Source: Amphiura filiformis
Lineage: Eukaryota > Echinodermata > Ophiuroidea > Amphilepidida > Amphiuridae
Direction of reading: 5' to 3'
Assembly (NCBI RefSeq): GCF_039555335.1
Contig: NC_092646.1
Coordinates: 32,928,880 to 32,992,879 of the forward strand
DNA: 64,000 nucleotides
Every line of letters begins with the position of its first letter. The first letter of the stretch is position 1. This document shows positions 2,545-47,315 of the stretch, in pieces. The position numbers and the translations under genes are program-made. The notes below the pieces were generated by a model that saw nothing but the letters and a program-made list of their open reading frames with translations, was not told the DNA's origin and searched no databases.

Positions 2545-5500
2545 CTACATCCCAAAACATACATCCGATGGATCATCTCCACGTTGATCACCTGAAGATA
2601 GAAAAATAACAACCAGTCAAAATTTAACATCTGCGGCCACATGTGTAAAATTTTGCTTTCTCATCTTCTTCCTTTCTCGTTTCCCCCATCTTCTCTCCCC
2701 TCCTCTCTTTCTTTATCTTCCATCTTCACCATTTCAAATAAAGATTGGAAAAGTTCGGAAAACCAGGTGCAATGAGCGGTATTTATTCAGTAAACTTGGG
2801 GGTCAAAATGGCGGACAAGAATTGTCATTTTTCACGGTACCCTTTAAAACGAAAATACAGGTTAGCTATCAGAGGCGCGGCTGTGAGACAAATTGTTGGT
2901 TGAATTTTCACTAGAACTGAATGTGTGACTATAGTTACCAAATATACTTCTAGTGAAAAGTTATGTTACCAACAGCAACTTCATTAAACCACGCGTAAAG
3001 GTTTGTGCAAATTACGCAACAATGGGAGGGGATTTTGAAACACGGGCCAACCGTACCCTTAGGTTTAATTCCGGGAGAGATGATACATGCAACTTACCAT
3101 GTGCGTCTTTGAGATCGTTGCAGATCTGTCTGTAAGTTGAACTCTGTATAAGGCTATCTTGTGCTGGGTTCCACCAGTCAGGCAGTTCATTGTCCAGCCT
3201 CGTCATTATGCCCACGCCACCATTAGGTAAAATGCACGAAAATGGATTGTCTGACAATTTCGTAATAGCATCTGCTATATCCGGGGCTACATCGACGCGA
3301 AATGACGTGAAACCAGCATCTACCTAGATATTAAGAAAATTTAATAATCCACAAGTTACTGATCTATAAGAGTATGCCTAACACTGGTTTGATACTTTCA
3401 TGCCGCTTGGCGCTTTGCCGCTTTGAAGATGATTCTGCTTCACTGCGCAGTCGCACCAGAAACGCTAGCGGTGACCAGCGGCAACCCGATATATCGATCA
3501 CTCCACTCGCTTTCCTCAAGCGGCAGCATCGCTGGGAGAATTCAAGTCAACTCCGATCGGTGCCGCTCTGACGTATGAGAACAAAATACGATTTTCGAGC
3601 GGTGCAGAGCGGCAACAGTGGCTTTCAAAGTCATGCCGCTGCCGCTCAGCAAGCGACATGATGAACAGCTGATGAAGCGTCACGCCGCTCAGAGGCAAGC
3701 GGCAGAAAGTATGAAACCAGCATAAGCTAATCCTACTGAGCTAATCCAACGAGGCCTCAGTCAATGTCGCTGAACTCTGTGGCCAGTAGGCCTACCACAA
3801 AAGCGGCACAAACCCTTTAACAACAACTCAGAGACTTGCAGCGAAGAAGCGCACATCCTACTATAAACCTTTGCAGCAAGTATCAGCTTTCCGAGTTTTG
3901 TACACCGGGAAATTAGAAGCTTATTCTTGATTACGAGAATAAACAAAGAAACTACGTAGGCTCAAACTCGTACCGTTTTCGCAGCGTAAAGCACCAGAAT
4001 ACACGATGTATCAAAATGATTGAGAAGACTACCACATCAAAATGCAGCTAGCTCCATCTCATTTGTAGAGTCCTAAAATGGTACTTTGTGGTCATTTCTA
4101 GAATCCAATGTTACATTTCGTAGAGCAGACCTTTCAATCAATAACAAAACTGATGGGTACTGATGAGTTTATTTGATAATAGTGAAAGAGAGCTTTAACT
4201 TGATAAAAACTTAAAGAAACTACTTTTTACTCTGGGTAGTGGGATGCGCAATAACTAACTCTCCCAGAATTACACATTCCGGGAATTGAACCCGGGACCT
4301 CCCATTTATTGAGCGGACACTCTTCATACCACTGAGCTATTACCAACATTAACTTTTGCATGGGCTTAATATATAATGCGACTTTTAACGTACTCGATCA
4401 GTACTGTTGGACAGTTGTCTTCGTATGCGCCATGTCATTTATACATAGACTTTCACGTGTATCAAATGCTTTACATTTATTTTGTTGTCGTTAGAATATT
4501 GTGAGACAGAGCCCGTTTCGCCGCGCCACCGTGCCCCCAATTGAAAACCCCCTGATGAAGAACTTATCAAATTTTTTCGAAAGGCCCAGAAAGGCTCCCA
4601 ACATGCCCTATCATTATAATCATGCTATTAAGAAATATGCGACCACTATTAACCAATCCGGCCGTTCTGAGGGGGTAATATTCCAGACCTGGCCTTGAGA
4701 ATTATGACCCGTTCGGGAAAAACATGATCTAGTAGAAATCTATTTAACTTCAAATCTACCTGTCCACTGACGATAGCGTCCATCAAATCTTGTGGTCCGG
4801 CAAAATGTTGAATTTGGCTCGCAGGCAGATTGTTACCCTGTGCAAATAAGACAGACAATAAAAATCTCGCTGATCGATGTAAACAATATTCTAACATTGT
4901 TCTACCGTTGTGGAAGACAATTTGGTGATCCTTCATGTAATTAGGAGTTACTACAATCTGAGATGCAGCATCTCCGATCAATAGAGAGATTGCGATTTCC
5001 AAACGTACGTATCGAATGCCCGTGCAATCTATTCAAAATGCCATCACAGGAGAGTGATTTTGAATGGATTGCACAGGCATTCGATACGTACGTTTGGAAA
5101 TCGCAATCTCTCTATTACCTTTCTTAAAATGTGCGCAGCACAATTAATTCTTGTAAAACACACGGTAAAATCAGAACTTGCTTTTCAATACTGTTTCGTC
5201 TCAACTTGAGAGTAACGCCATGTTGGATTACGGAGTGACAGATTCGAATTAGTACGTCGCCATTGTGCGTCATTGTGAAATAAATAGTGCTTGTACGGCA
5301 CGTTTAGGGTGTAAAATTTTGACAGCCAAATGCCACAGGTGCAAAACACAGGAAAAACCTCATTAGAAGTCAAGTTATGAAGTGAAAATGACGCTTTGTT
5401 CAAGGCGGAGGCAACGTGACTCACCGTTACACCTTGTTGGCGTTTTAGACAGAACTCGTCGCTGACGTATCCATCAATGAAACCTATGATTTGACCGGTC

Positions 5501-8500
5501 AAATCCGTTGGGTCAACTCTTCTAGGATTGTTGCGCTTCACTAAAAGATATGTACTGAAGAGCTTCGAAAATGGTTTGGAGAATTTGAACGTGCGTGACC
5601 TGTCGTAGCTTTGTGCCCATCCTATAACAAAAGAATAGTTTGCACTATTTGTAATGTAAAGTTACCAGGGCATGTTGAAGATAAGGGCAATGATCCTTTG
5701 ATTCTATTGACCTTAGAATGTTTTTAAAGCTGCATTAATAAGACATAAGTCTTTTCTGTAAAAAGGTTTAAAACTATGTTTATTATTATGTTCCTGTTCG
5801 GAACGCTGGTTTAACTTTGTTTATGTTGACACACTCGATTGCATCCAAAGACGATATATGAAAATAGTTCTTTAAGACTGATAATTCGGCCGATAGAGAT
5901 TTTTTTTATTTGTTCACTGTCACTTACCTACGCAGCCATCGTACCATCCACCCAGTAACCCCACGCCTCCTCTTGTTACCTCTCCAGCCTGCGAATCCCA
6001 ACAGCGGTTGTATAAATCCCATATCAGGTGGCAATTCTTGTTCGCTCGCTTACAAACTATGAAATGTAACGATAAAATTAGTATAAAATTGTGCAGCCTT
6101 TTCACATTTGATTCATTACCATGGACATACTCGCTCCTAAAGTTGGGTAAAATGAATTTGCAGTTTTTTCAATTCGGGTTGATCCCATGGGAACTTGCAC
6201 ACATGTGCCCTCTACGAAGCAGGTTATATAGTTATACAGTTAATGCAAAGGAAGCAACACTATCATGATTCGTTTGACAAATATGTCGTAATTGGAACCA
6301 GCAGCCAATAGCTGCACCTTTTAGCTAGGATTAAGAGTTTATCCGTTTTCTTAGCCAATATTAACAAATGTGATTTTAAATCAGAGCTAAAAAGTACTCG
6401 GTGTTTACGACATACAGGGGTGAACATAACTGGTACCTTAATTCTTTTGAGCACTGTATATTGAGGTGAGTATAAATCACCACACGTACACTATTCGCTC
6501 CCTTTTATTTTTCTTTACTGCGACATTGTTCATCTTTCTTCCCAGGATAAATACGCTGGCGAAGTTACGTAATAATCGGATTAACTACCATAGCAATAGG
6601 TGAAAACATTTTTTGAATATACCGCGCTGCACTGATACGTTCACGCGGTACTTTTTCATTGAACCATATCATGCTGATTACTTGCACCTGTAAGATTAGT
6701 ATCTTTAAAAAGACCAGTATTGTATTCAATCTATGATTGCAGACATAAACAGGTGATGAGTGTAATCTGCTTGTAGTGCAGCGCGATATGTTCTAAATTG
6801 TTTTCACCTATTGCTATGGTAATTAATCCGATTAATTACGTAACTTCGCCAGCGTATAGGCTCACTACTGTACTTACCTTCAAATGCTATGTCTACTTGG
6901 AATCCTTTGACCTGTCCTGTTAAATCATCGCTGAAATTACATAATCAGGAAAGTCTTTGTCACTTTGTCTTTGTGTGAATAAAGCGCTATCCATGTACGT
7001 GCCAATAGGTACCGATGGTTCCTTCTATCGTACCCTGAACATTTGGTACTTTCCTTTTTATTCAATTGAAAAACGATATCACCATGCAAATGTTAATTAG
7101 GGACTATTATGCTTGATACAATTTAAAACACCAGGGTATGATAGAAAGAGTCATCGGTACCTAACCGGGCACCGATAGTGCCATAGGACCAAATAAGACG
7201 TGATGCCTAACGGTCTGTGCACTATTTATGTGCGTCAAGGAAGAGTAAAATTTCCTGCGGAATGAGTACTGTTAAATGTCAAAAATGTCAATTTTTAGTA
7301 ATTTGCCAAAATAATTGTATCTGTTATATCGCGAATTTCAAAATTCGCGGTATTCAGACGGACATTCCTCGTATTCAGATTTAGTGTGTCTGGTGTGCTC
7401 TCAGATCCCATAAAAATACTGTGCAAAGGCGGGTGATCGAACCCTAAAACAGTCTTGCCCGACGCGAAAAAGTTGTCATATAGGAAAGAGATAAAGTCGT
7501 ATATAAATTGCAGATTGATAGTATACAAATATTAACTGTCTATGAGTGTGATGGTCAAAATATAATCACGAGGTGAAAGATGGATTGTTCCATTCCACGA
7601 GCCGGAACGGCTAGTGGAATGGAACAATACATCTTTCACCGAATGATTATATTCGACCATTACACGAATTTAAGACAGTTAATATTTGTTTTATATCACT
7701 CATACATAAATTCTATTACTAAAATACTATTTAAGGTAGGAAATACATTTTTTCATCAACGTAACACCATCAACATCCCACCTCCTCTAACCAGTTCACA
7801 TAATTTATGTTTTGTTTTATTTGATTCTGTATTGATTATATGTATTTTCTAGTAATGTTTCTGATTTTAATGTAAGGGCAATCCTTCAATTTATTGTGTA
7901 ATCAATATTGGATCTGCCTGGCCTTGTGCCAAATGTTATAAAAAAATTAAATAAATAAATGGCAATCAACCAATGAACTGTCTAGAATTTATGTATGAGT
8001 GATATAATTACATGTATGCTTCGTTGTTGGCCATGTGACCAATAGCCAAGTTCCATATTTTAGTGTCAACCGCTCCAGTACCTAAAATTAAAATTTAAAA
8101 AAAAGAGGGAAAGTATAACATTATACAAAAACAGATTAAAGGCTTTCTACACACACATACCCACCCAGCCTATCCCACCCATGCATGTTCACCGACATAA
8201 ACGCTTTAAAATCAATCAATCTCAACGACACGAAAACACAAAATAAAACTCCGATATCTGTCACCATTAAAAATACAAATTGCATGGAATAACAAGTATC
8301 GAAAAGGCTGATATTTAAGCGTAGTTTTAATATGAATTGTGTCAAATAATTACAACTTTGAATCAGCGTTTTTGTTTGCACTTCTTTTGGGAGAGAAGGC
8401 TGTATACTGCAACTTATTGATCCCTACGTGCCTCTGGCTCTGACAACCTGCAATAACTGTGGTCACCTTCATGCAATTCACTTTTTCTGTAAATCCCATA

Positions 8501-8943
8501 AGCCTTTGCGAGTACACCTGAGAACTCGTCATGTGACGTCACGCCAATGCATTTATCGAACATCGTTACTTAACATTGCAAGTCGGCGTGGACGTCAGGT
8601 GTACTCACAAAGGCTTATGGGATTTACCGAAAAGGTGAATAACAAATTTGAAGTGAAAATGAAACTCTATTAAAGGCAGAGGTAACGTAGGTAATATGCT
8701 AACTTATGCTAATTTATACTAATTTATACTAATATCTATGTAGGCCTGCTATCTCTCACCTGTCATGCCACCGCTTGTCCCACCTGTCACGCAAGTATTC
8801 CCACTTTGACTTGAAAACACAACCAACGATATGATAAGAGCTACAATCGCAGCTAGACCAGTCACCATCATTCGAACGAGGTACAACTTATTATTTACAG
8901 AAGTGTTGGCCTGAGCCATATTCATTTGTAGTTCTTCTCTCAT
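2545..8943 (-). CDS. Gene A: membrane-anchored family-3 solute-binding-protein-like protein, paralogue 1
   Basis: Eight exons read on the minus strand: 8943-8760, 8081-8012, 6930-6878, 6056-5928, 5621-5425, 4837-4760, 3323-3098, 2591-2545 (stop TAG 2547-2545). Every junction has GT..AG and the frame closes without a stop, giving 327 residues. Order: short head, one hydrophobic helix (core VTGLAAIVALIISLVVF), then an extracellular domain with the marks of bacterial family-3 solute-binding proteins: DDLTGQVKGF.VDIAFE, LLGGWYDGCVGWAQSYDR, FSKPF, VDAGF, and a C-terminal lobe with PDWWNPAQDSL. The Arg of SYDR and the Asp of VDAGF align by motif with the residues that hold the amino-acid ligand in that family. 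Unlike B and C, the ATG of MSNAAEQ is GTG here and no in-frame ATG exists back to the stop at 9210-9208, so I start at the next ATG (8943); an unseen upstream exon or non-AUG start is possible. Exon 7 is four codons longer than in B and C. The product is likely a surface binder of a small ligand; the ligand is unknown. Confidence 0.72.
3382..3722. mobile_element. MITE in intron-side flank of gene A exon 7
   Basis: Inverted ends CTGGTTTGATACTTTC and GAAAGTATGAAACCAG enclose sequence rich in GCCGCT. Genes B and C lack it at the matching place (TGCATAAGCTAA, TGGTCTAAGCTAA), so it entered after A split off. A partial relative is at about 61530-61746. Confidence 0.75.
4275..4350 (-). repeat. tRNA-like sequence (SINE head or tRNA pseudogene)
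   Basis: On the minus strand it has TAGCTCAGTGG (A box) and GGTTCAATTCC (B box) with a closed T arm (CCCGG/CCGGG). The acceptor strands (GTTGGTA and ATGTGTA) do not pair and the anticodon arm is poor, so it is not called as a working tRNA gene. Confidence 0.7.
4980..5116. mobile_element. Hairpin MITE in gene A intron
   Basis: Arms of about 60 bp starting AATAGAGAGATTGCGATTTC are almost perfect inverses around a short loop. The element is absent at the equivalent place in B and C. Confidence 0.85.
6551..6857. mobile_element. MITE with ~75-bp inverted ends, gene A intron 3
   Basis: ATACGCTGGCGAAGTTACGT at the left is answered by ACGTAACTTCGCCAGCGTAT at the right, and similarity continues through CCATAGCAATAGGTGAAAAC. 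The core carries AT-rich sequence and no frame. Specific to copy A. Confidence 0.85.
7525..7689. mobile_element. Hairpin MITE, gene A intron 2
   Basis: Arms ACAAATATTAACTGTCTATG... and ...AGACAGTTAATATTTGT meet at CCACGAGCCGGAACGG. About 75 bp per arm, moderately diverged. Confidence 0.75.
8478..8640. mobile_element. Hairpin MITE, gene A intron 1
   Basis: CTGTAAATCCCATAAGCCTT and its inverse AAGGCTTATGGGATTTAC bound a 160-bp element containing two TGACGTCA-like words. Reading frames seen here on both strands are by-products of the palindrome. Confidence 0.8.
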
Positions 8944-9892
8944 CCTGAAGTATTCTTCGTTGGGTTCTTCTTTTTGCTGTTCTGCTGCGTTTGACACCTT
9001 TTGTAAAGTGTGCCGGGACTTCGATGGGGTTTGTTGTAGTGCGCATATAACCACTAAACTCAGCAACACTACGGCCGTACGATAAAAGTTCAATATCAAG
9101 GATTTTGGAAAAAATAGGAAATGATTTGACCATTGGTTCAGTACAAGGTCAACTTGGGCTTTCCTGTGGATACATTTTGTTTTGGTAATATAGGATCTAT
9201 ACTGCCGTTATTTTGTGATAAAAGGAAGCATAATTTTCTAATAGTGTATATATTATACATATATTCTTTCGTCACTTCAAAAATGTGAGAAAGTTGATGA
9301 ACTGCTACTTCCTGTGTCAAAAAATCCATCAAAACATCCAACAGGGAAAAAACTGGCAACACCAGTCAATCACCAAGAAATCAAAAGGGTTAGTTATCGA
9401 AACGTACACAGTAAGTGTAATTTATTGGATCAGAAATAAGAACATTTTGATTGAATAAAATGTATAAGAATAAGATTGTATGCAACATTAGAACCACGGT
9501 ATACATTAGGTAAGCATATCACGTTTTATGTGCCCCTCGGGCAGGGTTGTGAAATAATTATTTGTCGGGATGGGTTTACAAAATGGTCTGCAAAAAATAC
9601 AATTTTACCCCTTAACACATGCCAGATTTAGCTGTGAGGGACACTTGCTTTGAGAACTAAGTAAAAAGTAAAGAAAATGCATATTTACGGTTGCGTACCT
9701 TCGCTCTTTTGAATCCCGACAAAAAAGAATCAACTAGACATGCTAGATGGCCGCCAATTTTAGATGCAAATTTGGTATTTTGTTATATTTCCCTTTTTTA
9801 AACCAAATGTCCCTCACACACAAGGTATGAAGTGTTTATTATAAATTTATTGTATATTTATTTTAATATTCTCCACACCAAGGAGAGTGCAA

Positions 9893-10769: not shown

Positions 10770-13700
10770 CTACATACCAAGACATACATCGGATGGATCA
10801 TTTCCACGTTGATCACCTGAAGATTTAAAAATAACAACCATGTGATCACTAAACCGACAGAAGTCAGCATTAAGCATGTGCCGCATGTGTAGGAATACAT
10901 GAGAATCTCCTGCCTTTATCCCTTCCCCACCTTTTCTCCCCTCCCTCTCCCTACTTGTAGGCCATTTCAAATCAAGATCGAAAAAGTTCGAAAAACCAGG
11001 TGCAGTGAGCGGTATTTATTATGTAAGCAAAGGGTCAAAATGACGGACAAGCAAAAATGTCATGAATCAGTACCCTTTTGAGCGAAAATGCAGCTTATTT
11101 AGACAATGTCAACATGGGACGACCAGATATATATTTTCCTAACATATTGAACTAATAAAGCCTCCGCGGCCGGTACTTGGCACTTCACAATATAACAGAT
11201 ATGGAACAGCAAATGTTCGTCATTTCTCGGCACTTTAGATTTTGACCAATTACTGACAAATAAACATCAATCTCTTATACACAAGACACCATGCTTGATG
11301 ATCGTCTTTCATTTAGCTGCGCAGATATATTGTGTCCAGGCTAAATAGTTTATGCAGCCGCAATTTCGAGATCGGAGAGATGATACATGCAACTTACCAT
11401 GTGCGTCTTTAAGATCGTTGCAGATCTGTCTGTAAGTTGAACTCTGTATAAGGCTATCTTGTGCTGGGTTCCACCAGTCAGGCAGTCCATTATTCTGCCT
11501 CGTCATTATGGTAACGCCAGCATTGGGTAAATAGCACGAAAACGGATTGTCTAATAATTTCGTAATAGTCGATGGTACATCGCCACGAAATGACGAGAAA
11601 CCAGCATCAACCTGGATATTAAGACAATTTAAAAATCCACAAGTTACTGATCTATAAGATTATGCATAAGCTAAACCTACGAGGCCTCTCGATGAGGCCT
11701 CTGTCGATGTCGCTGCCGGGTGTCGCTGAACTCTGTGACCGGTCGACCCTACCACAAACTGCATAAACCCTTTAACAACAATTTCGAGAGTTGCAGCTGA
11801 GAAACGCATATCACACTATAAACATGATAAACCTTTGCAGCAAGGATCAGATTTTTCGAGTTTCGTATAGGTTACATCGGGACAATTAGTGGCGAGCTAA
11901 CTTTTTAGCGAGATTATTCCGGTGCCTGTCCATGGGGTTGATGTACTACGTCATACCCCCTAGAATAGTGCATGATGGGAAGAAGGGAAAAAGGTCTATA
12001 TCACGGACCTGGCCCTTACACCGGGACCATCAGTAGCTATACTACGTCATACCCCCTGGAATAGTGCATGATGGGAAGAAGGAAAAAGGTCTATATCACG
12101 GACCTGACCCTTACACCGGGACCATCAGTAGTTATACTACGTCATACCCCCTGGAATAGTGCATGATGGGCAGAAGAGAAAGGGTCTATATCTCGGACCC
12201 TGGAATAGTGCATGGTGGAAAGAACGGAAAAGGGTCTATATCCGAGACCTGGCCCTTGAGAAATATAAGATCTAGTAAAAAAAAGTCAACTCTACCTGTC
12301 CATTAACGATAGCGTCTATTAAAACCTGGAGTGAGGCAAAATGTCGAATTTGAGTCGAAGGCAGATTGTTTCCCTGTGCAAATGCAAAAAAATCAATCCA
12401 ATCAGAAATTTCTTTTATATCGATCGAAATAAAAGTCCTTTTTTTTCATTTCGTCAACAGATAACACAATTCAATGTTTATAGTAAGGCAAATGTGGTTA
12501 ATCTGTTGAAAACGACCTCCAAGCACAATTTTTTACCAAAATGTAGGTTTTAAAAGTCAAAACCTCAAGTGTTCCTTACAATATTTTTCCAATTTTATGT
12601 CATTAAATGAAAGAGCACACTCATATTGTTCATATACTAGCTTCATTTCAATGAGCAATGGCCAATTCTCTTTAAATTGCAAATCCTGTGCAAAAAAGTT
12701 ACTATTTTGCCTGTTTTGTCATACGGTTATAAATTCAATGAACTATGACTTTGCTAAAGAGCGCATACAAATTGATATGATATGTGTGAAACCGAATAAC
12801 CTGGAGATATTTAGATCTCGGGATGCTTTCTGAACATCCAGTCCCTTGTTTCTGCATCGACTACATCAGTGATAACAGTTGCTCTATTTGTCAGTCCCAT
12901 CGATATAAACAATATATCCAAACATAACGCGAAGACAATTTGGGATCTGAGATGCTGCATCTCATCTTGTTTTTCAATAAACTGTTGTCAGTCAAAGTAG
13001 GAAATACTGAATATGACAAATTGCGGCCAGTTGAGGGCGTTAGTTTTTGACAGCCAAATGTCGCAGGCGAAGAACGCAAGAACACAGGAAAAACCTCGGG
13101 TTGAGTTCATTTATGAAGTGAAAATGAACAAGGCAGAGGCAACGTTGAGCTGAATTTATACTCCATCGCTAAGCGACAATTGGTTTCTAGCCAATGTTGT
13201 TGCGTGCTTTTTGTTGCGTTGGGTAAAGTGCGCTACATCATTGGTCAAATACAATCGCTCTTTGCTCAGCAATGTAGTATAAATTCAGCTTTATGCCAGA
13301 TAGACTCACCGTTACACCTTGTTGGCGTTTTAGACAGAACTCGTCGCTTACGTATCCGTCAATGAAACCTATGATTTTACCAGTCAAATCAGTTGGGTCA
13401 ACTCCTCTAGGATTGTTACTCTTCACTAATAGATAGGTACTGGCGGACTTAGTAAATGGTTTAGAGAATTTGAACGTGCGTGACCTGTCGTAGCTTTGTG
13501 CCCATCCTATAACAAAAGAATAGTTCGCACTATTTGTTGTGTTAAGTTACAAGGGTGTGAAGAAGGTAAGGACATTGATCATTTGGTTCATTTGAGCCTC
13601 TGCAGTAGCAAAGTTTGTCAAAGTATGCTGTTGCTGTTTGGAATGCTTGGTTAACGTTGCCCATGCCAACAAATTAGGACGAATCCAGAGACGCGTTCTT

Positions 13701-16700
13701 CGTATTATATTGGGTGTCATTACGCTGAATTATACGATCATATCTTGGAAGAGTGCAATAGTTTTGTCGGACTCGGATTCGACACTCTCGACTTCGGCTC
13801 GAGTCCGGACTCGGACACAAAAGGACCCGGACTATATTGGGACTTGGATGCAAAGTGGACTTGGCTCGAATGGGATGAGGCACAGTGTCATCGCCCCGAT
13901 ATCTTCATGGCAGAAATCGCCATGGTAGGTTGAATCCACCGCCACGCATGGCCATTTGTATCGACCTGTTTAATAGTTTTGAGTCGCATAATGGGCCGAA
14001 GGACATCTGACTAAGGCTACTGACAATAGCCCCGATTAGGCCGGTGACTGACCTCGCCGAGTCGAGCATGGTCATATACTTTTAGACTACCTTCACGATT
14101 GCGCTATATAATTCGGCACATATAAATCAGAATTATTGTCAGTTTCTGACAAGTTTCAGACGCAAGCTTCTATCTCAAGACGCAAGCTAACGACTATCAT
14201 ATCTGTTCAAAATATATATTCAAGTGCAAGGAACCATATCTGGTTTCTTTATACGAAATCATTTACGGGAGATATTCATAATTTTCTACCCCGGTATCCA
14301 AAGATTTTCGTCTCATATCAAACTCGTGCATAGGACATTCACGTGTATCGATCCCGGGTATTGATTTTAGTATCTCTGCAGAGAAAGTAATTATTAGCCA
14401 GGCGATGTCGGTGTGTGAGGTATTGGTCTGTGTGCGTGAGTTTCTTGTAGACCATCAGCTTAACAGAGCATCGGATTTGCGAATGATGAGGGTATCGATA
14501 CGACATTGACCCATCATGCTCTTTCTAGATGAGTGATAAGTAATTGTCAACTTGGTTTTCGTTGGTAATTTCTAAAAATGCCACCGACATACCAGAGCCG
14601 CAGTTTATTGGTAATTTCTAAAAATGCCACCGACATACCAGAGCCGCAGTTTACAGTCTAACGGGGCTGTAGCAATTTGTTGTTGTTCTAAAAACTCAAT
14701 ATACAAATTCACAACGGGGACACCATGAACAGAGATAGCTAGAGATGAGGGGCACATTTGCACTATATGTCTATTATGATCCACTTCTGGGCGCTAGTAC
14801 GCCCTCTGTTGGTGATCACTACCAGAAGGAAGGATCAAGTACCATCACTCCGAAGAAGGCCTTTGAACAAGATGGCCGAAACTGTTAGGTCAGTATATTT
14901 GGTTTTGACAAGATGAACATTCCTAGAATTGTATCACACAAACCTAATGGATTTCTTCAGGACTAGAATATTCCAGAAAAAAATCGATAGTGTTCAAATT
15001 AACCTACAGAATATGTCCGATTGTCTTCTCTAATCAGAATTATTTATCAATGTACGGTTGAATATAAACCACCGTCATGGGTACCACTGTCTCTCTCTTA
15101 AAGTGCCCCTGATTCGTTAATTACATGATATTCTTAGTAACCAATCGAAATATAACCTTTAGATCTCTTAGTAATTTACTGGTCTAATCCCCTACTGACT
15201 ATTCTTAACATATCTCTGATTGGCTCAATGTGAATTATATAGTAAAATCTAACCAATGAAAATAGTTCTTATAATTATGTTCACTTTCACTTACCTACGC
15301 AGCCATCGTACCATCCACCCATTAACCCCACGCCTCCTCTTGTTACCTCTCCAGCCTGCGAATCCCAACAGCGGTTGTATAAATCCCATATCAAGCGGCA
15401 ATTCTTGTTCGCTCGCTTACAAACTATGAAATGTAAAGATAGAATATGAGTATAAAATTGTGCAGCCTTTTCACATTTGATTCATTACCATGGCCATACT
15501 CGCCCTCCTAAACCCAAATGAATTTGCAGTTTTTTAAAATTTAAATCCCATGGGAATTCACACTACTTACCTTCAAATGCAATGTCTACGTGGAATCCTT
15601 TGACCTGTCCTGTTAAATCATCGCTGAAATTAAATAATCAGGACAGTCTTTGTCACTTTGGCTTTATGAAAGAAAGAGTCATCGGTACCTAAGGGTGCAA
15701 TAATTATGTGTACCCCCGGAGGTGAATTATAGGGGGGGCAAAGATTTTTGGCAGGCCAAAAGGGGGGGGCAAGTATTTTTGGCAGGTCGAAAGGGGGGTC
15801 AAGCGATTTTTGGCAGGTCGAAAGGGGGGCAAGCAATTTTGGCACAGATATTTTGGGCACCGTTTCTATATTACGCCCTAAAAGGCGTAGGAAAACGTTA
15901 CGAACACGTTCAAATATGCAAAATGTCCTGCTCGCTGCGCTCGCATTATATGTTAAGACAATTTAAGGTTTTAAATTCGGGTTCCTCAAAATCTTGCATG
16001 TGTAAGGGGGGGGGGGCAAAGATTTTTTGGCACGTCAAAAGGGGGGGCAAAGGTTTTTTGGCACGTCGAAAGGGGGGGCAAAGGTTGTTTGGCACGGCCA
16101 AAGGGGGGGGGGGCAAGCGATTTTGGCAGACCATTTTGAAAATTCACCCCCCCTGGTACATATAATCATTGCACCACCCCTAACCGGGTACCGATAGTGC
16201 TATAGGACCAAATTAGATGTGATGCCTAAAAGTGTCTGTGCAATATTTACGTGCGCCGTGGAAAATTACTCCCAATTTTAGCAAAATACCACATTCGGGG
16301 AACTAATTTCCATAATGGGAGGAGCGTAATAAGCATGTCACTTTCAACTTTTTCATTGTGCTTTCTACGTCATTTTAGTGCGTACACTGCATAACATTAA
16401 TACGCTGCGCCAAAAATTGTTTTTCATCGCATTTTATTCCATCATAAATCCTACCCACCCCATTTTACTCCCTCCCCGATTACATAATTAATGCACGGCC
16501 CCTGAGAGACACGTGTATTAACTAAAAATATGAGATTAAAAATGGCAACATATTGTTAATTAATTACATCGGCTAGGCCTATAAGTGGTTCACTGCAACT
16601 TTATAAAGAGTCGAACCTGCAATTTTTACAGGACGGAGTGCCCATCTCTCTTTTGTTAGGGATTAGGCTAGACTCCACCGTGAAATGTTGCTGTGAATAC

Positions 16701-20830: not shown

Positions 20831-20938
20831 GGGTGTGGTGGGCAGATTGTAATAGAATTACCGTGTGTTGCATGAGAATATCTATTTGCGAACATACATT
20901 GCTTCCTTTACCCCTCTTTCGAACCACCTATGTTCTTT

Positions 20939-22093
20939 ATATCTTGGTGTAGATTATTCATCCAGTAGTTCAAAAAACATTATTTTGTAAATTAAATCAA
21001 ATACTGGAACTAAAATTTGCAACTCACTTTGCTACGTTGCGTCCGAAAGCATCGGACTTCGTCAGGCATCTGATTGAAGATGTTGTGATGACGTCAGATG
21101 TTGTGACGTCAGACGGCGAGGAATTCATTATCATAGACAAAAGCGAGTCGGAGTCCTTCTTTAATTTCATTAATCAAGTTGACCCGAACATCAAATTCAC
21201 TCAGGAGGAATGTGTGGACAATAAGTTAGCTTTTCTGGACTGCTTGGTTCATTTGAACAGTGACGGTACCCTCAACTCACGCATACCGATCACTATTTAC
21301 AATTTGACTCAACCATCCGCTGATCCACAAATTAGGCGTGATCAGAACCCTCCAATACCGTGCGGACACTGTCATAAGCAATTCTGAGGACATTCCGGAG
21401 GGAAAAGCTCACATACAGAAAGCCCTTGGAAAAGAAAGACTCCGCTAAATCCACCACAGGAGAGGTAAACTACGGCAATCGCACACATGTAACCATCCCA
21501 TACATCGCTGGATTATCTGAAAGGCTTAAGAACTCTTTCAAGTCCTTCGGCATCACTACGTGCTTCAAACCTACTAACATCCTACGGGGGAAGCTCGTGC
21601 ATGTCAAGGACAACCCCCCCCGAGATAAACAGTGCAATTTAGTTTATGGCATTACCTGTGCTGCTCCGGACTGTGGTGACTCCTATGTAGGGGAGACAAA
21701 AAATCTCTACGAGCGCGACTGAACCAACACAGGCGCCCTAGCTCCAGCGAAGCCCAAAACTCTGCTGTTTACAACCACTGAAATAAGAAAACTGAACATT
21801 TCTTAACCCTGAGGAAGCTGTTATCCTAGATATGGAGCCGGGAGAAGTGGTTTGAGCGAGGAGTCAGAGAATCCATATGGGAGAGAGTGGAGGAGCCCGC
21901 CATTAACAGAAAAGGGGGACTCCGCTTCCTGTTGTCACACGGATGGGACCCGGCGTTACAAGACATTCCTCGCCGTCTGACGTCACAACATCTGATGTCA
22001 CCACAACATGACAACATCTTCAACCAGATGCCTGACGAAGTCCGATGCTTTCGGACGCAACGTAGCAAAGTGAGTTGCAAATTTTAGTTCTAG
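20939..22093 (+). mobile_element. Penelope-like element PLE-1 with inverted terminal repeats, nested in PLE-2
   Basis: Flanked by a 10-bp target duplication TATGTTCTTT (20929-20938, 22094-22103). Plus-strand frame: NQVDPNIKFTQEE, LAFLDCLVHLNSDG (reverse transcriptase), an internal deletion at about 21290-21400, then GLSERLKNSFKSFGI and NLVYGITC...YVGETKNLYERD (GIY-YIG endonuclease), then WFERGVRESIW...INRKGGLRF. Arms 21006-21118 and 21971-22091 are inverted repeats. Penelope elements commonly carry such terminal repeats. The element cannot move by itself because the polymerase core is missing. Confidence 0.88.
22034..22062 (+). ncRNA. Hammerhead-ribozyme-like motif in PLE-1 right arm
   Basis: Just upstream of and through this span the order is CTGACGA (22032-22038), stem GTCCG...CGGAC, then GCAAC where the ribozyme core has GAAAC. 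The inverse copy is at 21034-21067 in the left arm. Penelope elements of several animals are known to carry hammerheads in their terminal repeats; the core change here suggests a weak or dead one. Confidence 0.4.
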
Positions 22094-22495
22094 TATGTTC
22101 TTTGTCGAGCACAATAACGTCTTTATCCTCAAAAGTATGCTTGGCTGCTTTGAGGTGCGTATAAACAGACGAATCGTTTAACCCCGTTGAGCTGGGGCGA
22201 CGATGTTGGTACATCCGTTTATGGAGCGGTTGTTTAGTATCCCCTATTTAATAGTCATCACAGTCCGTATCCTGGCAATTGATGGCATACACGATATTAC
22301 TCTGTTTGCGCTGAGGAATCTTGTCCTTAGGGTGGACTAACTTCTGTCTCAGTGTGTTACATGGTTTTAGTGAGACAGGGATCTGATGTTGTCCAAAAAT
22401 CCTCTTTAATTTCTCAGAGACATCTGAGACAATGTGATGCCAAAATTACGTGTGCTCGAAGAGGTAGTGGAAGCTTGTGTTGGTGGAGATGGATC

Positions 22496-23179
22496 CCCAG
22501 CAAACACAAAAACGTTTTTAAAACGTTTTAAATAAGTTATATTTTGGGTTTTGGTTTAGGTAAAAACGTTTTCATAACATTAAAATGTCGGGTTATATAA
22601 AGGTCATGAAATCGTTTTAAAACGTTTTGTATGAAAACACACTACAACAATATTTTTAAAATGTCTTCGAAATGTCATTGTAAACTATTTTTTTCAAACA
22701 TTTTTGGCCAAATATTTTGTCAACACTTAAATAACATTATGTTAAAATATTTGCACCCAGCAAACACAGAAATATTCTTAAAATGTTGCATACAATTCGT
22801 TTTAATAACATTTAAATGTCGGGTTATATTAAGGTCGTGAAAACATTTTAAAAACGTTATTGTAAATATTTTGGGCAAACATTTTTTGCAAAATATTTTT
22901 CAACCCCAAAAATAACATTCTGTTTAGAATGTTTTGTATCAAGTTTTTTAAAATGTTTTTGAAATGTTATTAAAACGTTTTTATACCCTTTATATAACCC
23001 GACATTTAAATGTTTTCTGTAAAACATTTGTGTTTGCTGTGCAGTAAATTACCAACAAATGTTATTTAATGTTATAAAAATGTTTTATACCATTAATGTA
23101 CCCTTAATATAACCCGACATTTAAACGTTTTCTGACAACCTTTTGCGAATGATGTCAAAAACGTTTTGTGTTTGCTGGG
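22496..23179. mobile_element. CAGCAAACAC-type MITE inside PLE-2
   Basis: Ends CCCAGCAAACACAAAAACG and CGTTTTGTGTTTGCTGGG; internal ACCCAGCAAACACAG at about 22754 shows a nested or tandem structure. Joining the flanks restores GGATCC in the PLE-2 frame (KDPSP), with TC duplicated, the same 2-bp duplication length as in the gene B copy. Confidence 0.85.
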
Positions 23180-23635
23180 TCCTTTCGCGGTTTCAAGGCT
23201 TTTTGAAAAGTCCAATCCTTGTATCCGCAGGTACCTAGGGCTGACTTGAGGTATTCGCGTTCAACCGATTTAGTTTCCTCTGTCGAAGGGATAGTTTCAG
23301 CACGATGATAGAGTGTTTTAATCACACCGAGTTTATGGATAAGCGGATGATGGGAGTCAAACAGTAGATACTGGTGTATGTGTGGCTTTACGGTATACTG
23401 ATGTTGAAAGTGTGCCGTCACCCTGAATTTTGACCAAACAGTCCAAAAAAGGCAACTTGTTGTCGTCCGTGCCCTCTTGGGTGAACTTGATATTTGTTCG
23501 CACTTTTTGATCTTCACGAGGTGTCATCGACGTAACAGAACCATTACGACGGTACCGTACCACTGTACGAGGCTAGTGCAGATTGTTCGAAGCGTTCCAT
23601 GTACAAGTTTGCGACGATTGGAGAATCAACGGGGT

Positions 23636-24680: not shown

Positions 24681-25050
24681 TTTTCCATGTACATATCAAT
24701 TTTATCGTACATAGAGGCATTGTCTTTAATAGGCGGTTACACAACAAACTCTCTCGGAATTAAAACAAAAACAAAACAACCTCATCATATTGAATTTAAT
24801 ATCGTTGTATTATCATGATTGTAGTCTCAGCATTCCCTATAACTGGTTTCGATTGTAAAAACAAGGCACACGATTAGGTTTTAGGCTATCAAACATGACC
24901 AAAGTCTGACAATTCCTCCTTATATATAATTGAAGACCGAATTAAAAAGACTAGTTTGCGTATGACGTCCTGTCAACCAGACCAAAAATGCCGTACTGCA
25001 CAGGTCAGCAACCAATCACGACGCGCCTTTGCCCTGACGTCAGGCGCAAA

Positions 25051-28000
25051 CTACATCCCAAGACATACATCGGATGGATCATTTCCACGTTGGTCACCTG
25101 AAGATTTAAAAATAACAACCATGTGATCACTAAAGCGACAGAAGTCAGCATTAAGCATGTGCCGCACGTGTAGGAATACATGAGAATATCCTGCCTTTAT
25201 CCCTTCCCCGCCTTTTCTCCCCTCCCTCTCCCTACTTGTAGGCCATTTCAAATCAAGATCGAAAAAGTTCGAAAAACCAGGTGCAGTGAGCGGTATTTAT
25301 TCTGTAAGCAAAGGGTCAAAATGACGGACAATAACAAATGTCATGAATCAGTACCCTTTTGAGCGAAAATACAGGTTATTTAGCCAATATCAACATTGGA
25401 TGATCAGATATATATTTTCCTAACATAATAATTGAACTAATAAAGCCTCCGCCGGTACTTGGCACTTCACAATATAACAGATATGGAACAGCAAATGTTC
25501 GTCATTTCTCGGCACTTAAGATTTTGATCCATACCTCGGAAACATGGCATGTTGCCTCAGGGGATCGTCATGCGTCAGGTACTCAAAAATAGCGCAAACA
25601 GCGCGAGCGTACACAAAAGAAACTTCGCACGTAAGATAAGCGATGTCGCCAGGTCTGTACGCTGTACCGGCGTCAGCTGAATTCTAGTACGCTTAGAGGG
25701 CACAGGCATGGAAAATTCCAATCTGTGTATTAATAATCTAAGTTTTGACCTATTACTGACACATAAACATCAATCTCTTATACACAAGACACCATGCTTG
25801 ATGGGCGTCTTTCATGTAGCTGCGCAGATATTTTGTGTCCAGGCCAAATAGTTTATGCAGCCGCAATTTCGCGATCGGAGAGATGATACATACAACTTAC
25901 CATGTGCTTCTTTGAGATCGCTGCAGATCTGTCTGTAAGTTGAACTCTGTATAAGGCTATCTTGTGCTGGGTTCCACCAGTCAGCCAGTCCATTGTCCAG
26001 CCTCGTCATTATGCTAACGCCACCATTGGGTAAATAGCACGAAAATGGATTGTCTGATAATAGCGTAATAGTATCTGGTACATCGCCACGAAATGTCGAG
26101 AAACCAGCATCAACCTAAAGATTAAGACAATTTAAAAATCCACAAGTTACTGATCTTTAAGAGTTGGTCTAAGCTAAACATACGAGGCATCCCAACCCAA
26201 CGAGGCCTCTGTCAATGTCGCTGAACTCTGTGAAGTGTACCACAAACTGCATAAACCCTTTCAACAATTTCGAGACTTGCAGCAAGGATCAGCTTTCCGA
26301 GTTTCGTATAGGTTACACCGGGACAATTCTAGCGAGCTTAATCCGGTGCCTATGTCCACGAGGTTGATGTACTACGAAATACCTCCTGGAATAGTGCATG
26401 TTGGGAAGAAGGGAAAAGTCAGTACCTGTCCTTTACATCGACAATTAGTAGCTAGCTAACTAGCGAGTTTTTTCTGGTGCCTATCCATGAGGTTGATGTA
26501 CTACGTTATACCCCCTGGAATAGTGCATGATGGGATGAAGGGGAAAAGGTCTATATACCTGACCTGGCCCTTACACCGGGACAATTAGTAGCTATACTAA
26601 ATCATACCCCGAACGGAAAAGGGTCTATAGGCCTATCCGAGACCTGGCCCTTAAAAAATATATTTCTTTTTAAAGAATTAAAAACAAGATCTAATTTCAA
26701 CTGTACCTGTCCATTAACGATAGCGTCTATTAAATCCTGAAGTGAATCAAAATGTCGAATTTGAGTCGAAGGCAGATCGTTACCCTGTGCAAATGCAAAA
26801 AAATAAATAAATAAAATCAATGGGCATTTCCATTTTAAATCCCAAATCCACTTACTCTACCCCTGCGGAAGATTTAGCTGAAGTGTTCCACAGAGGGATC
26901 ATGGGATTGAAATACTCACTCCAGTTGTGGAAAATATAGGTAAAGCCTTAATACAAAGGGATTATGGGTTTCAAAATGATTAACCCTGACCAATTACATT
27001 TGTAAAACACAATTGGTAAATATTTCCAAACTCTTTAACAGAGGTAGTGTGTATTTCAACTGGAATAGTCCAATCTCACTCATCGATCTGCTTCATACGT
27101 TTGAACCTAATAACCGATATTTGGATATTTAGATCTCAGGATGCTTTCTGAACAGCCAGTCTCTTGTTTCTGCATCGACTCTATCACTCAGTGAGATGAA
27201 GTTGCTCCATTTGACAGCCTCCTCGATGTAAACAATATATCCAAACATTGATCTATCGCGAAGGCAATTTGAGATCTGATATGCTACATCTCATAGACTT
27301 GTATTGTAAAACACTGTAAAATCAGAACTTGTTTTTTAATAACCTGTTGCTAGTCAAAGTAGGAATTACAGAATATGATAAATTACAGCCAGTTGAGGGC
27401 GTTAGATTTTGACCGCCAAATGCCTCAGGCGAAGAACGCAAGAACACATAGGAAAAACCTCGGGATAAGTCAATTTATGAAGTGAAAATGAACGAGGCAG
27501 AGGCAACGTTAAGCTGTATTTATACTCCATCGCTGAGCGACAATTGGTTTCTAGCCAATGTTGTAGCGTGCTTTGTGTTGCGTTGGGTAAAGTACGCTAC
27601 ATCATTGGTCAAATACAATCGCTCTTCGCTCAACAATGTAGTATAAATTCAGCTTTATGCTAGTAAGACTCACCGTTACACCTTGTTGTCGTTTTAGACA
27701 GAACTCGTCGCTTACATATCCGTCAATGAAACCTATGATTTTACCGGTCACATCCGTTGGGTCAACTCCTCTAGGATTGTTACTCTTCACTAATAGATAG
27801 GTACTGGCGGACTTAGTAAATGGTTTGGAGAATTGGAACGTGCGTGACCTGTCGTAGCTTTGTGCCCATCCTATAACAAGAGAATAGTATGCACTATCAT
27901 TGATCATTTGGTTAATTTGAGTCTACCCTGTAGCAAAGTTGGTCCAAAGTTTGGAGCTATGTTTATTATCATCCAACCGTTATTTATGGTACGCTAATGC

Positions 28001-31000
28001 TGGATTAACGCCCGGTTTAACGTTGCTCATGCCAATAAATTAGGACGAATCCAGAGACGCACTCTTCGTATTATATTGGGTGCAATTACATTGAATTATG
28101 CGATCATGTTTTGGAAGAGTGCAATAGTTTTGTCGGACTCAGACTCGACACCCGCGACTTGGGTTCGAGTCCGGAATCGGACACAAAAGGACCCGGACTG
28201 TGTTCTGACTTGGATGTAAAGTGGACTCGGCTCGTCTCGGACTCGGATAAGGTGGACTCAGATACAAGTTTTGGACTACGGTCGGTCCAGCGAAGGCCAT
28301 CATCGTTATGATGGTGATTTGGAATTGGTCCTTGCTTCTGGTTGATTGATCACCAACTGTGTGGTCTGCGATTGCCAACTTTGATATTTCGCCTAGTTTC
28401 TAAATGACGACCAGACCGGTTTCACCCACATAAGCATGATATTAAGTAGGCCTACGGTCACAATTGGTGCAAGGTTATATACACATAATCGGTCCCACAA
28501 AGGGGTCTCTTTTGTCCTTGGGGTGGGCCCCAACAATTTCCACAGGATGGTATGATGACGCACAGTGGTGGCAATGACATGCTTTCTAAAAATACGAGTA
28601 GCAATGTCATCAACATACCGTTTCCATAGCTGCAATTTACAGTCTAACGGGGCTGTGTGCAATTGCTTGTGACAACAACCGGGGACACCATAAACAGAGA
28701 AGAGGGGCACATTTTCAAAGTCACGTATTTGTATAATCCACTTTTTGGAGCTTATGCGTCCTCTGTTGGTGATCACTACCAGAATGAAGTTCACGTACCA
28801 TCACTCCAATGATGGCCTTCGACCAAATATATTTGGATTTGACAAGATGTACATTCCTATAATTGTATCACACAAACCTAATGGATTTCTTCAAGACTAG
28901 AATATTCCAGAAAAAAAATGGATAGTGTTCAAATTAACCTATAGAATCTGTCCGATTGTCTTCTCTAATCAGAATTATTTATCAATGTATGGTTAAATAA
29001 TTATAAACCACAAGGGTACTACTGTCTCTCTTAATGTGCCTCTGATTGGTTATTTCATGATATAATCTTCTAAGTAACCAATCAAAATACCCTTTAGATC
29101 TCTTAGCAATTTACTGGTCTAATCCCCTACTGACTATTCTTAACATATCTCTGATTGGCTCAATACGAATTATATAGTATTATCTAACCAATGAAAATAG
29201 TTCTTATATGTTCTCTTTCACTTACCTACGCAGCCATCGTACCATCCACCCATTAACCCCACGCCTCCTCTTGTTACCTCTCCAGCCTGCGAATCCCAAC
29301 AGCGGTTGTATAAATCCCATATCAGGCGGCAATTCTTGTTCGCTCGCTTGCAAACTATGAAATGTAAAGATAAAATATGAGTATAAAATTTTGCAGCCTT
29401 TTCACATTTGATTCATTACCATGGTCATGTCACTCGCTCTCCTAAAGTTGGGTAAAATGAATTTGCCGTTTTTAAAATTTAAATCCCATGGGAATTTACA
29501 TTACTTACCTTCAAATGCAATGTCTACGTGGAATCCTTTGACCTGTCCTGTTAAATCATCGCTGAAATTGAATCAGGAAAGTCTTTGTCACTTTGGGAGT
29601 CATCGGTACCTAACCGAGCACCAATTAGACGTGATGCCTATAAGTGTCTGTGCAATATTTATGTGCGCCGTGAAATGGTAAAAATTCCGAACGGCATTCG
29701 CGCCAAAATTACTCCCCATTTTAGCAAAGTACCAAATTCGGGGAACCAATTTCATGATGGGAGGAGCGTTATAAGCATGTCACTTATTTCAACATTTTCA
29801 TTGTGCTTTCTACGCCCTTTTAGTGCGTATACTGCATAACATTAATACGGTGCACCAAAAATTGCCTTCCATCGCATTTTGTTTTATCAGAAAGTCCCAC
29901 CCTTTTTACTTCCTCCCGCGGCTACATAATTATTGCACGGCCCCTGAGAGACACATGTATCAACTAAAACCATGTGATTAAAAATGACAGCATATTGGTT
30001 TTTTTTTTAATTACATCGGCTATAATAAGTGGTTCACTGCAACTTTATAAAGAGTCGAACCTGCAATTTTTACAGGACGGAGTGCCCATCTCTCTTTCGT
30101 TAGCGATTAGGCTAGACTCTACTGTGAAATGTTGTTGTGGGAGATCGCCACACCGAGCATGTTACCTTCCCAGCATTAAAGAATACCGGTACCCATTTAT
30201 ACATCTGGGTGGAGAGGAGTAATCGAGATAAAATGCCTTACTCAAGGGCACAACTGGGGCTCGAACCTGCAACATTCCGATTATGAGTCAGAGCCCGTTC
30301 CGCTCGTTCACCGTGCTCCCTTGTAACCCAATTTCATAACTTACATTTTTACGACAATTAGCCCAGTTTTTCATTACGGTATATGTTCCTTAAAGAAATT
30401 GTCATATCGTAAAGAGATCAAATTAACATTTACATATATGCTTCGTTGTTGTCCAGGTGACCAATAGCCAAGTTCCATATTTTAGTGTCAACCGCTCCAG
30501 TACCTGAAATTGAAGACAGAGAGGGAAAGTATAAACTATAAGCTCTTATACAGAGACAGATTCACGGCTCTCCACATACAAATACCTACCAGCCTACCCA
30601 ACCCATGTAAACCGACATCAACGCTCTAAAGGCAATCAATGTCAACGATACAAAACCACAAAAGTCCACTTTTTTTCGGAATAAGAGTTGAAATCAGTCC
30701 TATATTCACAAAGGTCCCACTTTTTACTTCCCCGCACGCCCAATAAATCCTGGTTACGGGTCTGGTCTTTTAATCTAGGCCCTATGTGTCAGTTCATTCT
30801 AAATTTAATTTAAACAAGAAACGTCTTTAAAAAGACAACGCCATGAATGAAATTCATGTTTCATAATTTTACATTGACAAGTATTTGAAATGCTACAATG
30901 TAGTATTTTTTGTTTGTAGCATGCGCACATGCACAACTAACCGGGTGGGAAATATTGTTACCACCACCAATGACATACTATAGGAAATTCTCAAGAATTT

Positions 31001-32785
31001 TTATGTTGAATGCTAAATTGAAAATGTGTGCTAAATAGGTCTACATTTAATTTATACTTGTGACTGATTACTCAATCCCAGGCATTCTCGGGCTTAATCC
31101 AATCTTTATTTTCTGAATGTGTTGATTATATTGTTACTATTAACTGTCCAGTTGCTCACTTGTTGACAGCTTATCCGTAGCCTGGATCAACAGGGGTGCA
31201 ATTGTATCATTTTTCATAGAGCAATTGTTCAAAATGTTTAATGTCAAATGCTTCCTAAAAACCTTATTTGTGAACGGATTTTCATCGTTGATAAAACAAA
31301 ATGTATGTTTAATATATTAATTGTTTCATTAATAGCAATTTCCCAAGTTTCCATCCATAAATAACCATAGATTATTATCTGTTTACAAAATAAGTGTTTA
31401 TTTTCAGATTTGCAAAGCGCAGAGCTGTAAAGGAAAGTACCTGCTGTACTCAACTGGGCCTATCGTCTAGACGTCTACTGTATCTATTTCCCGTTAGATC
31501 AAGGTCCGTACCACGAAGGTGAATTCTAGTGTGAAATACTGCAGATATCCAAAATAAGTTGTTAAAGAAATAATAAATAAATCCGTCCAAGATACTTTCA
31601 GGGTCATATCAATTTGTAAGCGCTCTTTAGCAAAGTCATAGTTCATTGAATTTACAACCGTATGACAAAACAGGCGAAAACTAACATTTTGCACAAGTTT
31701 TGCAATTTATAGAGAATTGGCCATTGCTCATTCTAATGAAGCTAGTATATGGCCAATATAAGTGTGCTCTTTTATTTAATGATATCCGGTTTGGGGGTTA
31801 ACAATTACCAGTAGAAAATGACGTTCTCCGGTATTTGGCCGCGAATGCCGGCTAAAGTTTCTCCGCTATTTCGTCGGCATTTATCCTTCTAAAACTAGGA
31901 TTTTTTTCCGGTGAGAAGAGCCGGTTTTCGTCAATAGAAAACCACAGCCTCCGTATCCTTGTTCGCCACAGTGGAGTACGGAGGCTTTGAGAGGTTTAAT
32001 CGCGAGGGGGGGGGGGTTGTGACAACCGGCACATATGCAAATGACATCAGCGGCATCGGGTATTTACCCGATATTTAGCGCAGTAGAAAATCACGGTGAG
32101 CAGGAATATTCAGGTATAATCTCTACCCGGAATGATTCTTTATTATACCGTACGTACAATAGAAAAATGCTGATTGTTGTAGTACAGTAAAAGTTACCCA
32201 GAATGGATTTTAGAAGGAATGACATAACAACGACAACATCGAATTGGATTTGAAAACAATTATTGAAAAGCTGAATATATTAGCTATAGTGTAACATTAT
32301 TACAAAATAATTACAACTTTGAATCGGCGTTTTCGTTTGGACTCATTTTTGAGAGAAGCTGTATACTGCAACTCATTGAGCTCTATTTACCTCTGGCTAT
32401 TGCCATCTACACGTGGTCACCTCCATACAATAGAAGAACTCGGGGAAACTTAAATTTTGATGTGAAAATGAAAACTGTATTTAAGGCAGCGGTAACGTAC
32501 GGAATATGCTAATTTATGTAATCTACGTAAACCCTGCTATCTCTCACCTGTCATGCCATTGCTTGTCCCACCTATCACGCAAGTATTCCCACTTCGACTT
32601 GAAAACACAACCAGTGATATGATAAGAGCTACAATGGCAGCTAGACCAGTCACCATCATTAGAACGAGGTACAACTTATTATTTGCAGAAGTATTGGCCT
32701 GAGCCATATTCATTTGTAGTTCTTCTCTCATCCTGAAGTATTCTTCGTTGGGTTCTTCTTTTTGCTGTTCTGCTGCGTTTGACAT
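25051..32785 (-). CDS. Gene C: membrane-anchored family-3 solute-binding-protein-like protein, paralogue 3
   Basis: Exons on the minus strand: 32785-32548, 30503-30434, 29561-29509, 29354-29226, 27870-27674, 26784-26707, 26114-25901, 25097-25051. All boundaries are GT..AG, exon lengths equal those of B, and the product is 341 residues. The chosen ATG (32785, MSNAAEQQ) matches B; the frame is open further up to another ATG at 32977, which would add 64 residues including a hydrophobic stretch (AVVLLTLVAFY), but B is frameshifted there, so that stretch is probably 5' UTR. Domain order is as in B: acidic head, one transmembrane helix, extracellular family-3 solute-binding-like lobes with GWAQSYDRSRTF, FSKPF and VDAGFSTFRGD. 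It differs from B at scattered sites (for example FQFSKPF for FKFSKPF). Introns share with B an antisense SINE and Penelope/LINE fragments, showing that B and C arose from one duplication after those insertions. About 200 bp upstream of exon 1 is similar in all three copies and may contain the promoter. Confidence 0.78.
28393..28830 (-). mobile_element. Penelope-like reverse transcriptase fragment, gene C intron 4
   Basis: Minus strand keeps LQLWKRYVDD, the catalytic motif of Penelope-type polymerases, with upstream VVITNRGRISSKKW; frames are broken. Same origin as 14540-14930 in gene B. Confidence 0.7.
30075..30320 (-). mobile_element. Antisense SINE, gene C intron 2
   Basis: The inverse of the 2142-2449 SINE over most of its length: ends GGACGGAGTGCCCATCTCTC and CCGTGCTCCC, with the core GGCACAACTGGGGCTCGAACC. 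More diverged than the plus-strand copy and lacking a clear target duplication. Confidence 0.8.
31795..32130. other. Unique-looking insert in gene C intron 1
   Basis: This stretch separates the end of repeat R from the exon 1 side and has no match in gene B. It holds AGTAGAAAAT twice (31812, 32084), a CCTCCGTATCC...GTACGGAGGC inverted pair (31950-31985) and a run of G (32008-32018). No gene is visible. Confidence 0.4.
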
Positions 32786-47240: not shown

Positions 47241-47315
47241 GCACCTATGTTGACAAAAATGCAAACATTTCCATGCTATATCGTGTGAGTAAGCTTGAAA
47301 ACTTGCATCAGTCAT

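Follow-up and report, generated by a model that had tools for sequence, protein, structure and literature searches.

Animals use the family-3 solute-binding fold mainly within glutamate-gated channels, and bacterial sensor kinases of the BvgS type use a family-3 periplasmic domain, tethered to the membrane, for sensing. Unnamed animal proteins with the label of this domain are also held in public protein databases. Here, we describe three tandem genes of the ophiuroid Amphiura filiformis that encode what we predict to be a stand-alone, membrane-anchored form of the domain. The genes lie on the minus strand, within positions 2545 to 32785 of a 64,000-nucleotide stretch (NCBI RefSeq assembly GCF_039555335.1, contig NC_092646.1, positions 32,928,880 to 32,992,879 of the forward strand), the whole of which we call the window, and are named G1 (32785-25051), G2 (20399-10770), and G3 (8997-2545).

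The corresponding Pfam domain, SBP_bac_3 (PF00497), is mentioned in a tardigrade stress list (PMC9145152), and a predatory mite has an expanded family of 22 such genes, listed alongside phage terminase genes (PMC6902594). The phrase "bacterial extracellular solute-binding proteins" occurs in a report on shrimp hepatopancreas (PMC5070816), and SBP_bac_3 genes acquired by transfer are listed for anaerobic fungi (PMC11291939). According to an account of prokaryotic glutamate receptors, the solute-binding and glutamate-receptor InterPro domains overlap, and the solute-binding one is found in the Delta 1 receptor (PMC2950845). In an animal glutamate-receptor survey, a term search showed "solute," "periplasmic," and "bacterial" to be absent from the main text (PMC6307864). 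Among the matches listed, the literature offered list-like mentions of the domain and nothing on what an animal family of this kind does, in agreement with a first-pass annotation of this DNA, which knew of none.

Domain and gene structure

All three products have the same layout: a short tail, a single transmembrane helix, and an SBP_bac_3 domain. The domain scored 30.6, 31.3, and 29.3 bits in G1, G2, and G3, respectively, against a curated cut-off of 26.4, so the match exceeds chance, and no other Pfam family rose above its cut-off in the three products. The family-3 solute-binding domain proposed in the first-pass annotation is therefore upheld, and no unrelated animal domain emerged as a better match. 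In NCBIfam, for which G1 was the only copy scanned, the best model was TIGR01096 (lysine/arginine/ornithine-binding; E = 3.5e-7), yet at 30 bits against a curated cut-off of about 256, G1 is no member of that subfamily model. The best matches in the PDB were arginine-, nopaline-, and histidine-binding proteins, along with binding domains of amino-acid ATP-binding cassette transporters; the weakest PDB rows were unrelated proteins. A profile alignment with the bacterial set spans both lobes of what is presumably a two-lobed fold. The closest relatives found were bacterial proteins of the histidine/arginine/lysine-binding branch, with best segments at no more than 29% identity.

The gene models were built by comparing the three regions with one another and by reading the sequence. 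Each gene has eight exons, with the same intron phases (1,2,1,1,0,0,1) in all copies, just as had been annotated, and 21 of 21 introns have GT-AG borders. Intron lengths vary among the copies (range, 147 to 3179 bases), and some intron parts can still be aligned. The frames are open in all three genes, giving products of 341 (G1), 341 (G2), and 345 (G3) residues. The start codon is ATG in G1 and G2 and GTG at the matching position in G3, for which no in-frame ATG was found upstream; the earliest methionine of the G3 product is residue 19. The frames had all been called intact, which is thus certain for two of the three copies (G1 and G2) and uncertain for G3. A longer exon 1, extended upstream in frame, was rejected because the frame is closed in G2. 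No fourth copy was found within the window: tblastn matches of the three products at E < 0.001 were confined to the exons given below.

In G1, exon 1 (32548-32785, minus strand, like all exons here) encodes the ATG start, the N-terminal tail with the motif YFRM, the transmembrane helix, and Cys69 in the stalk. The binding domain begins in exon 2 (30434-30503), and the GFHVD motif follows in exon 3 (29509-29561). Exon 4 (29226-29354) carries the pair Cys122/Cys129, corresponding to Cys38/Cys45 of the bacterial LAO protein, and a family-specific insert, and exon 5 (27674-27870) carries the arginine of SYDRSRT (LAO Arg77) and FSKPF. Exon 6 (26707-26784) encodes sequence of the second lobe, and exon 7 (25901-26114) encodes VDAGF, the position of LAO Asp161 (Thr in G1), and the end of the domain; exon 8 (25051-25097) encodes the C-terminal tail GDQRGNDPSDVCLGM and the stop. 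Exons 1 to 8 of G2 lie at 20162-20399, 16913-16982, 15571-15623, 15295-15423, 13310-13506, 12296-12373, 11398-11611 (Ser at the LAO Asp161 position), and 10770-10816 (stop). Those of G3 lie at 8760-8997 (GTG in place of the ATG), 8012-8081, 6878-6930, 5928-6056, 5425-5621, 4760-4837, 3098-3323 (four more residues than in the other copies; Ser at the LAO Asp161 position), and 2545-2591 (stop). Two introns of G2 contain other elements: a reverse transcriptase fragment (RVT_1, 45.3 bits) at 18751-19461 on the minus strand in intron 1 and G-rich 31-base minisatellites (plus-strand letters) at 15731-15844 and 16010-16109 in intron 2.

The three proteins are 88 to 94% identical, and synonymous divergence among the copies is 0.11 to 0.20. 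The ratio of non-synonymous to synonymous divergence (dN/dS) is 0.27 for G1-G2, 0.46 for G1-G3, and 0.30 for G2-G3, and the excess of synonymous over non-synonymous change is significant in every pair (Fisher P = 1.5e-5, 0.002, and 3e-7, respectively). G1 to G3 are tandem paralogues under purifying selection, and both the comparison between the regions and the divergence of the copies bear out the expansion by duplication that had been proposed.

Bacterial proteins and glutamate receptors as relatives

Since GluA2 passes SBP_bac_3 too (72.3 bits), a match to this model alone cannot tell a domain of bacterial type from a glutamate receptor. The glutamate-receptor model Lig_chan-Glu_bd (PF10613) was not matched by the G2 domain at E ≤ 10 or by the three proteins at E ≤ 1, while the GluA2 control scored 157.7 bits. 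Glutamate receptors were likewise absent from the PDB matches at E ≤ 10, in a copy of the database where GluA2 matches 359 distinct sequences at 1e-20. When profiles of three sequences each were run against the window proteins, HisJ/LAO/ArtJ scored 19.2 to 20.1 bits, GlnH/TcyJ/GltI scored 6.9 to 15.2 bits, and GluA2/GluK2/GluN1 scored 5.9 to 7.4 bits. In the single-sequence ranking, which listed 103 of the 104 rows, the three glutamate receptors came 86th, 87th, and 89th, just under Escherichia coli GlnH. Profile-profile comparison gave a probability of 99.0 over 200 aligned columns against 59 bacterial or phage-borne proteins and a probability of 14.6 against the three-sequence glutamate-receptor set, a contrast that the unequal set sizes (59 versus 3) tilt toward the bacterial side.

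A mixed-alignment search yielded at least 57 bacterial loci (from 596 stretches) and one viral contig (from 86 stretches); at E ≤ 1, matches were found in 219 plasmid records, every one below 60% identity, and in four phage records. Close relatives were also sought by family-specific peptide patterns, which matched 46 genome-contig and 42 viral-contig stretches, none encoding a relative at E 1e-3; each of these scans used two patterns, and relatives without them escape it. The 101 comparison rows consist of 7 E. coli proteins, 67 "near" rows, and 27 "broad" rows, with one phage protein and one viral-contig protein included. Nine of the broad rows were identical to others, and 18 were kept in the first tree, which holds 95 of 104 rows after the removal of identical ones. 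The second tree has 58 rows, with long-branch and near-copy loci removed by hand and three glutamate-receptor domains added. As an aside on these sequences, the Pseudomonas phage record L006 carries an annotated hisJ binding protein at 1372-2172, and the protein of IMG/VR contig L064 is its tree neighbor (support, 100/98).

In the 58-row tree, the window family grouped with the basic-amino-acid proteins (support, 98/96), and the glutamate receptors stood beside GlnH (support, 90/65). Together, the PDB, PF10613, profile, and tree comparisons sustain the earlier suggestion that the domain resembles bacterial proteins more than it does glutamate receptors. Several results nevertheless pull the other way. 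The approximately unbiased (AU) test does not reject a clade of the window family and the glutamate receptors (P = 0.148), and the family sits on a very long stem branch, with 3.63 changes per site for the 58-row tree and 4.25 for the 95-row tree. A direct BLASTP comparison aligned 144 residues with GluA2 at 22% (single-comparison E = 2e-4), E. coli GlnH scores near GluA2 in the single-sequence comparison (7.5 versus 6.8 bits), and the bacterial rows were chosen in part by their likeness to the window protein. On account of the AU value, the GluA2 match, the long stem, and the choice of rows, we regard a bacterial affinity of the domain as likely, not proven; direct transfer from a bacterium is one way in which it could have come about. 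Of the ancient bacterial origin imagined in the first-pass annotation, then, the comparisons favor the bacterial side, and the AU result for the glutamate-receptor clade leaves the origin itself unproven.

Binding pocket, topology, and proposed role

To describe the pocket, we used the translated sequence of the E. coli LAO protein as a ruler, with contact residues and residue roles as in LAO structures. All three copies keep Arg77 and the cysteines at positions 38 and 45, and they have Trp at position 52, as do 66 of the 101 comparison rows. The residue at position 69 is absent, and Asp11 is replaced by Gly, Tyr14 by Asp or Ala, Ser72 by Ala, and Thr121 by Val; in place of Asp161, G1 has Thr, and G2 and G3 have Ser. 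Among the comparison rows, 84 of 101 have Asp at position 161 and 90 of 101 have Arg at position 77. MAFFT, HMMER, and hhalign placed position 77 alike. They also agreed on position 161, although for G1 the alignment by HMMER ends one residue before it; positions 11 and 14 hinge on an alignment gap and are the least secure placements. When six pocket positions were scored, each window copy matched two, Arg77 and Ala at position 72 (the latter counted as a match because 16 of the 101 rows carry Ala), and 94 of the 101 rows matched three or more. The cysteine pair is present in four of the seven E. coli proteins (HisJ, LAO, ArtJ, and ArtI) and in 65 of the 101 rows overall. Its share among the near rows (54 of 67, against 7 of 27 broad rows) is biased upward because the near set was picked by likeness to the window protein.

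The canonical alpha-amino-acid pocket, which pairs Arg77 with Asp161, is thus not found in these proteins, as Arg77 is kept and Asp161 is lost. Two points of the earlier reading need mending. The aspartate of VDAGF, which it named among the motifs, is not the ligand aspartate; it sits five positions ahead of the ligand position, which aligns with LAO Asp161 and is Thr or Ser. Nor do the motifs support an intact amino-acid site: Arg77 apart, the residues at positions 161, 14, 11, 72, and 121 prove to be replaced and that at position 69 absent. We conclude that the family has preserved the fold's sequence pattern and one carboxylate anchor and has lost the amine anchor. The Rhizobium proteins L018, L026, and L047 also lack the position 69 residue and have Ser at position 161. 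We dropped the idea of a special link, as their overall identity to G2 is no more than 17 to 20%, they rank 34th, 33rd, and 74th of 101, respectively, and the group uniting one of these proteins with the window family has tree support of 85/76. By eye, permease-like reading frames follow the binding-protein gene in L018 and L026, and a peptidase-like one precedes it.

Each product has one hydrophobic segment only, with 19-residue windows above 1.6 beginning at residues 34 to 49. It precedes the domain, and no channel helices lie between the domain halves, which fits the single membrane pass annotated before. The tail ahead of the helix is about 37 residues long, has no Pfam match to a kinase or other domain, and contains YFRM at residues 16 to 19 in all three frames, presumably a sorting or internalization motif. 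Beyond the helix are nine cysteines, invariant across G1, G2, and G3. Because of these cysteines and the pair that aligns with a periplasmic disulfide, we infer a type II orientation with the domain outside. Some features fit this orientation poorly: the charge bias is weak (+1 on the tail flank and 0 or +1 on the opposite flank), the sole glycosylation sequon is at residue 31 in the supposed cytoplasmic tail, and the supposed ectodomain has none. G3 read from its first methionine would lose the tyrosine of YFRM.

The explanation that we favor, held tentatively and at a little short of an even chance, is that these are membrane-anchored animal surface proteins in which a family-3 clamshell binds a small carboxylate-bearing ligand and that they stem from a bacterial acquisition and subsequent tandem duplication. 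Each would be a type II protein in the plasma or endosomal membrane with its clamshell outside, and it would probably serve at the surface to sense a small molecule as a receptor or to collect it as a scavenger. The domain would shut on the ligand via the retained arginine; as Arg77 is kept, the ligand would probably bear a carboxylate and be acidic, and because the amine-binding aspartate is lost, an alpha-amino acid would not be expected to bind in the usual manner. Given YFRM in the tail, the loaded receptor could be internalized or coupled to adaptors, and since the odd ninth cysteine lies in the stalk, it may join the proteins into dimers. The gene was probably taken from a bacterium long ago and would then have gained introns and a signal anchor, with tandem duplication coming later. 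A bolder version is possible but doubtful: an animal lineage took over a bacterial amino-acid-binding protein, anchored it, equipped it with an internalization motif, and rebuilt its pocket around the arginine for some other small acidic molecule, and the gene is multiplying in tandem into a family of surface receptors with neither channel nor kinase. The ligand of the altered pocket might then be a metabolite made by microbes or a signal within the animal, at the same low level of confidence.

The altered pocket might instead mean that the clamshell has ceased to bind small ligands and has become a module for protein-protein contacts, as in a co-receptor or cell-surface recognition protein. 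The two matches in six pocket positions, set against three or more in 94 of 101 comparison rows, point that way, as do the missing position 69 and the family-specific insert in the first lobe; however, all three copies have Arg77, selection on the domain is purifying, and bacterial members of the family are known to differ in their pocket residues and yet bind ligands, so we consider this unlikely. It is improbable that the family descends from animal ionotropic glutamate receptors by loss of the channel, with only the ligand-binding domain kept. The common binding-fold superfamily, the presence of FSKPF in GluA2, the BLASTP match to that receptor, and the AU value would agree with such a descent, but the domain fails to match Lig_chan-Glu_bd, the receptors rank low among the rows listed, they take a separate position in the tree, and the window proteins have the cysteine pair of the bacterial branch.

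Two further alternatives concern where the proteins act and whether they act at all. The weak charge bias and the sequon confined to the N-terminal tail would suit an intracellular sensor with its domain toward the cytosol or an organelle lumen. The domain side has nine cysteines shared by all three copies, however, and two of these align with the disulfide pair of a periplasmic family, which makes such a sensor less probable again than a glutamate-receptor offshoot. Least probable of all, in our estimate, is that the copies are decaying or non-functional duplicates of a parent gene elsewhere: G3 has lost its ATG and a reverse transcriptase fragment lies within intron 1 of G2, but the frames are open, the splice sites are intact, and selection on the protein is evident in every pair (dN/dS, 0.27 to 0.46; Fisher P ≤ 0.002). 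Under the favored explanation of an anchored clamshell near the bacterial side, the family would give animals a further means to sense or collect small molecules and would offer a clean case for how a component of a transport chain turns into a receptor, with an altered pocket that yields a specific, testable ligand prediction.

Rest of the window and comparison with known systems

Apart from the three genes, the window contains a C2H2 zinc-finger reading frame, open without a break for 1251 residues (43581-47336, minus strand), which is overlapped by tandem repeats at 44453-44903 and 44985-45508. With the intron-bearing genes and the reverse transcriptase fragment, this frame would by itself mark the DNA as animal with fair confidence. 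At 50288-50788, a 251-base unit is present in two tandem copies that are 100% identical, the result of either duplication in the very recent past or an artefact of the assembly. Reading-frame fragments at 20953-23572 resemble, by eye, what we take to be a motif of Penelope-type elements; four scanned fragments of this region had no Pfam match at E ≤ 0.01. No tRNA genes (bacterial code setting) and no Rfam families at gathering score were found within the window.

Set beside known systems, the window family shares its Pfam domain with the tardigrade, mite, and fungal SBP_bac_3 genes, a comparison drawn from list mentions of those genes alone. BvgS-type sensor kinases also tether the domain to a membrane, but the tail of about 37 residues in the window proteins matched no kinase or other domain. 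With the ionotropic glutamate receptors, the family has in common the binding-fold superfamily, occurrence in animals, and FSKPF; it differs from them in lacking channel helices and a Lig_chan-Glu_bd match, and the similarity is lower than that to the bacterial proteins. Among the sequences compared, the likeness is closest to bacterial HisJ, LAO (ArgT), ArtJ, and ArtI (SBP_bac_3, TIGR01096). With these, the family shares Cys38-Cys45, GF.VD, Arg77, and a motif order that holds over almost all of the domain. Unlike these secreted bacterial proteins, those of the window are probably anchored by an N-terminal helix, and they have an extra insert, extra cysteines, introns in their genes, and a pocket in which Asp161 and most other residues have been replaced.

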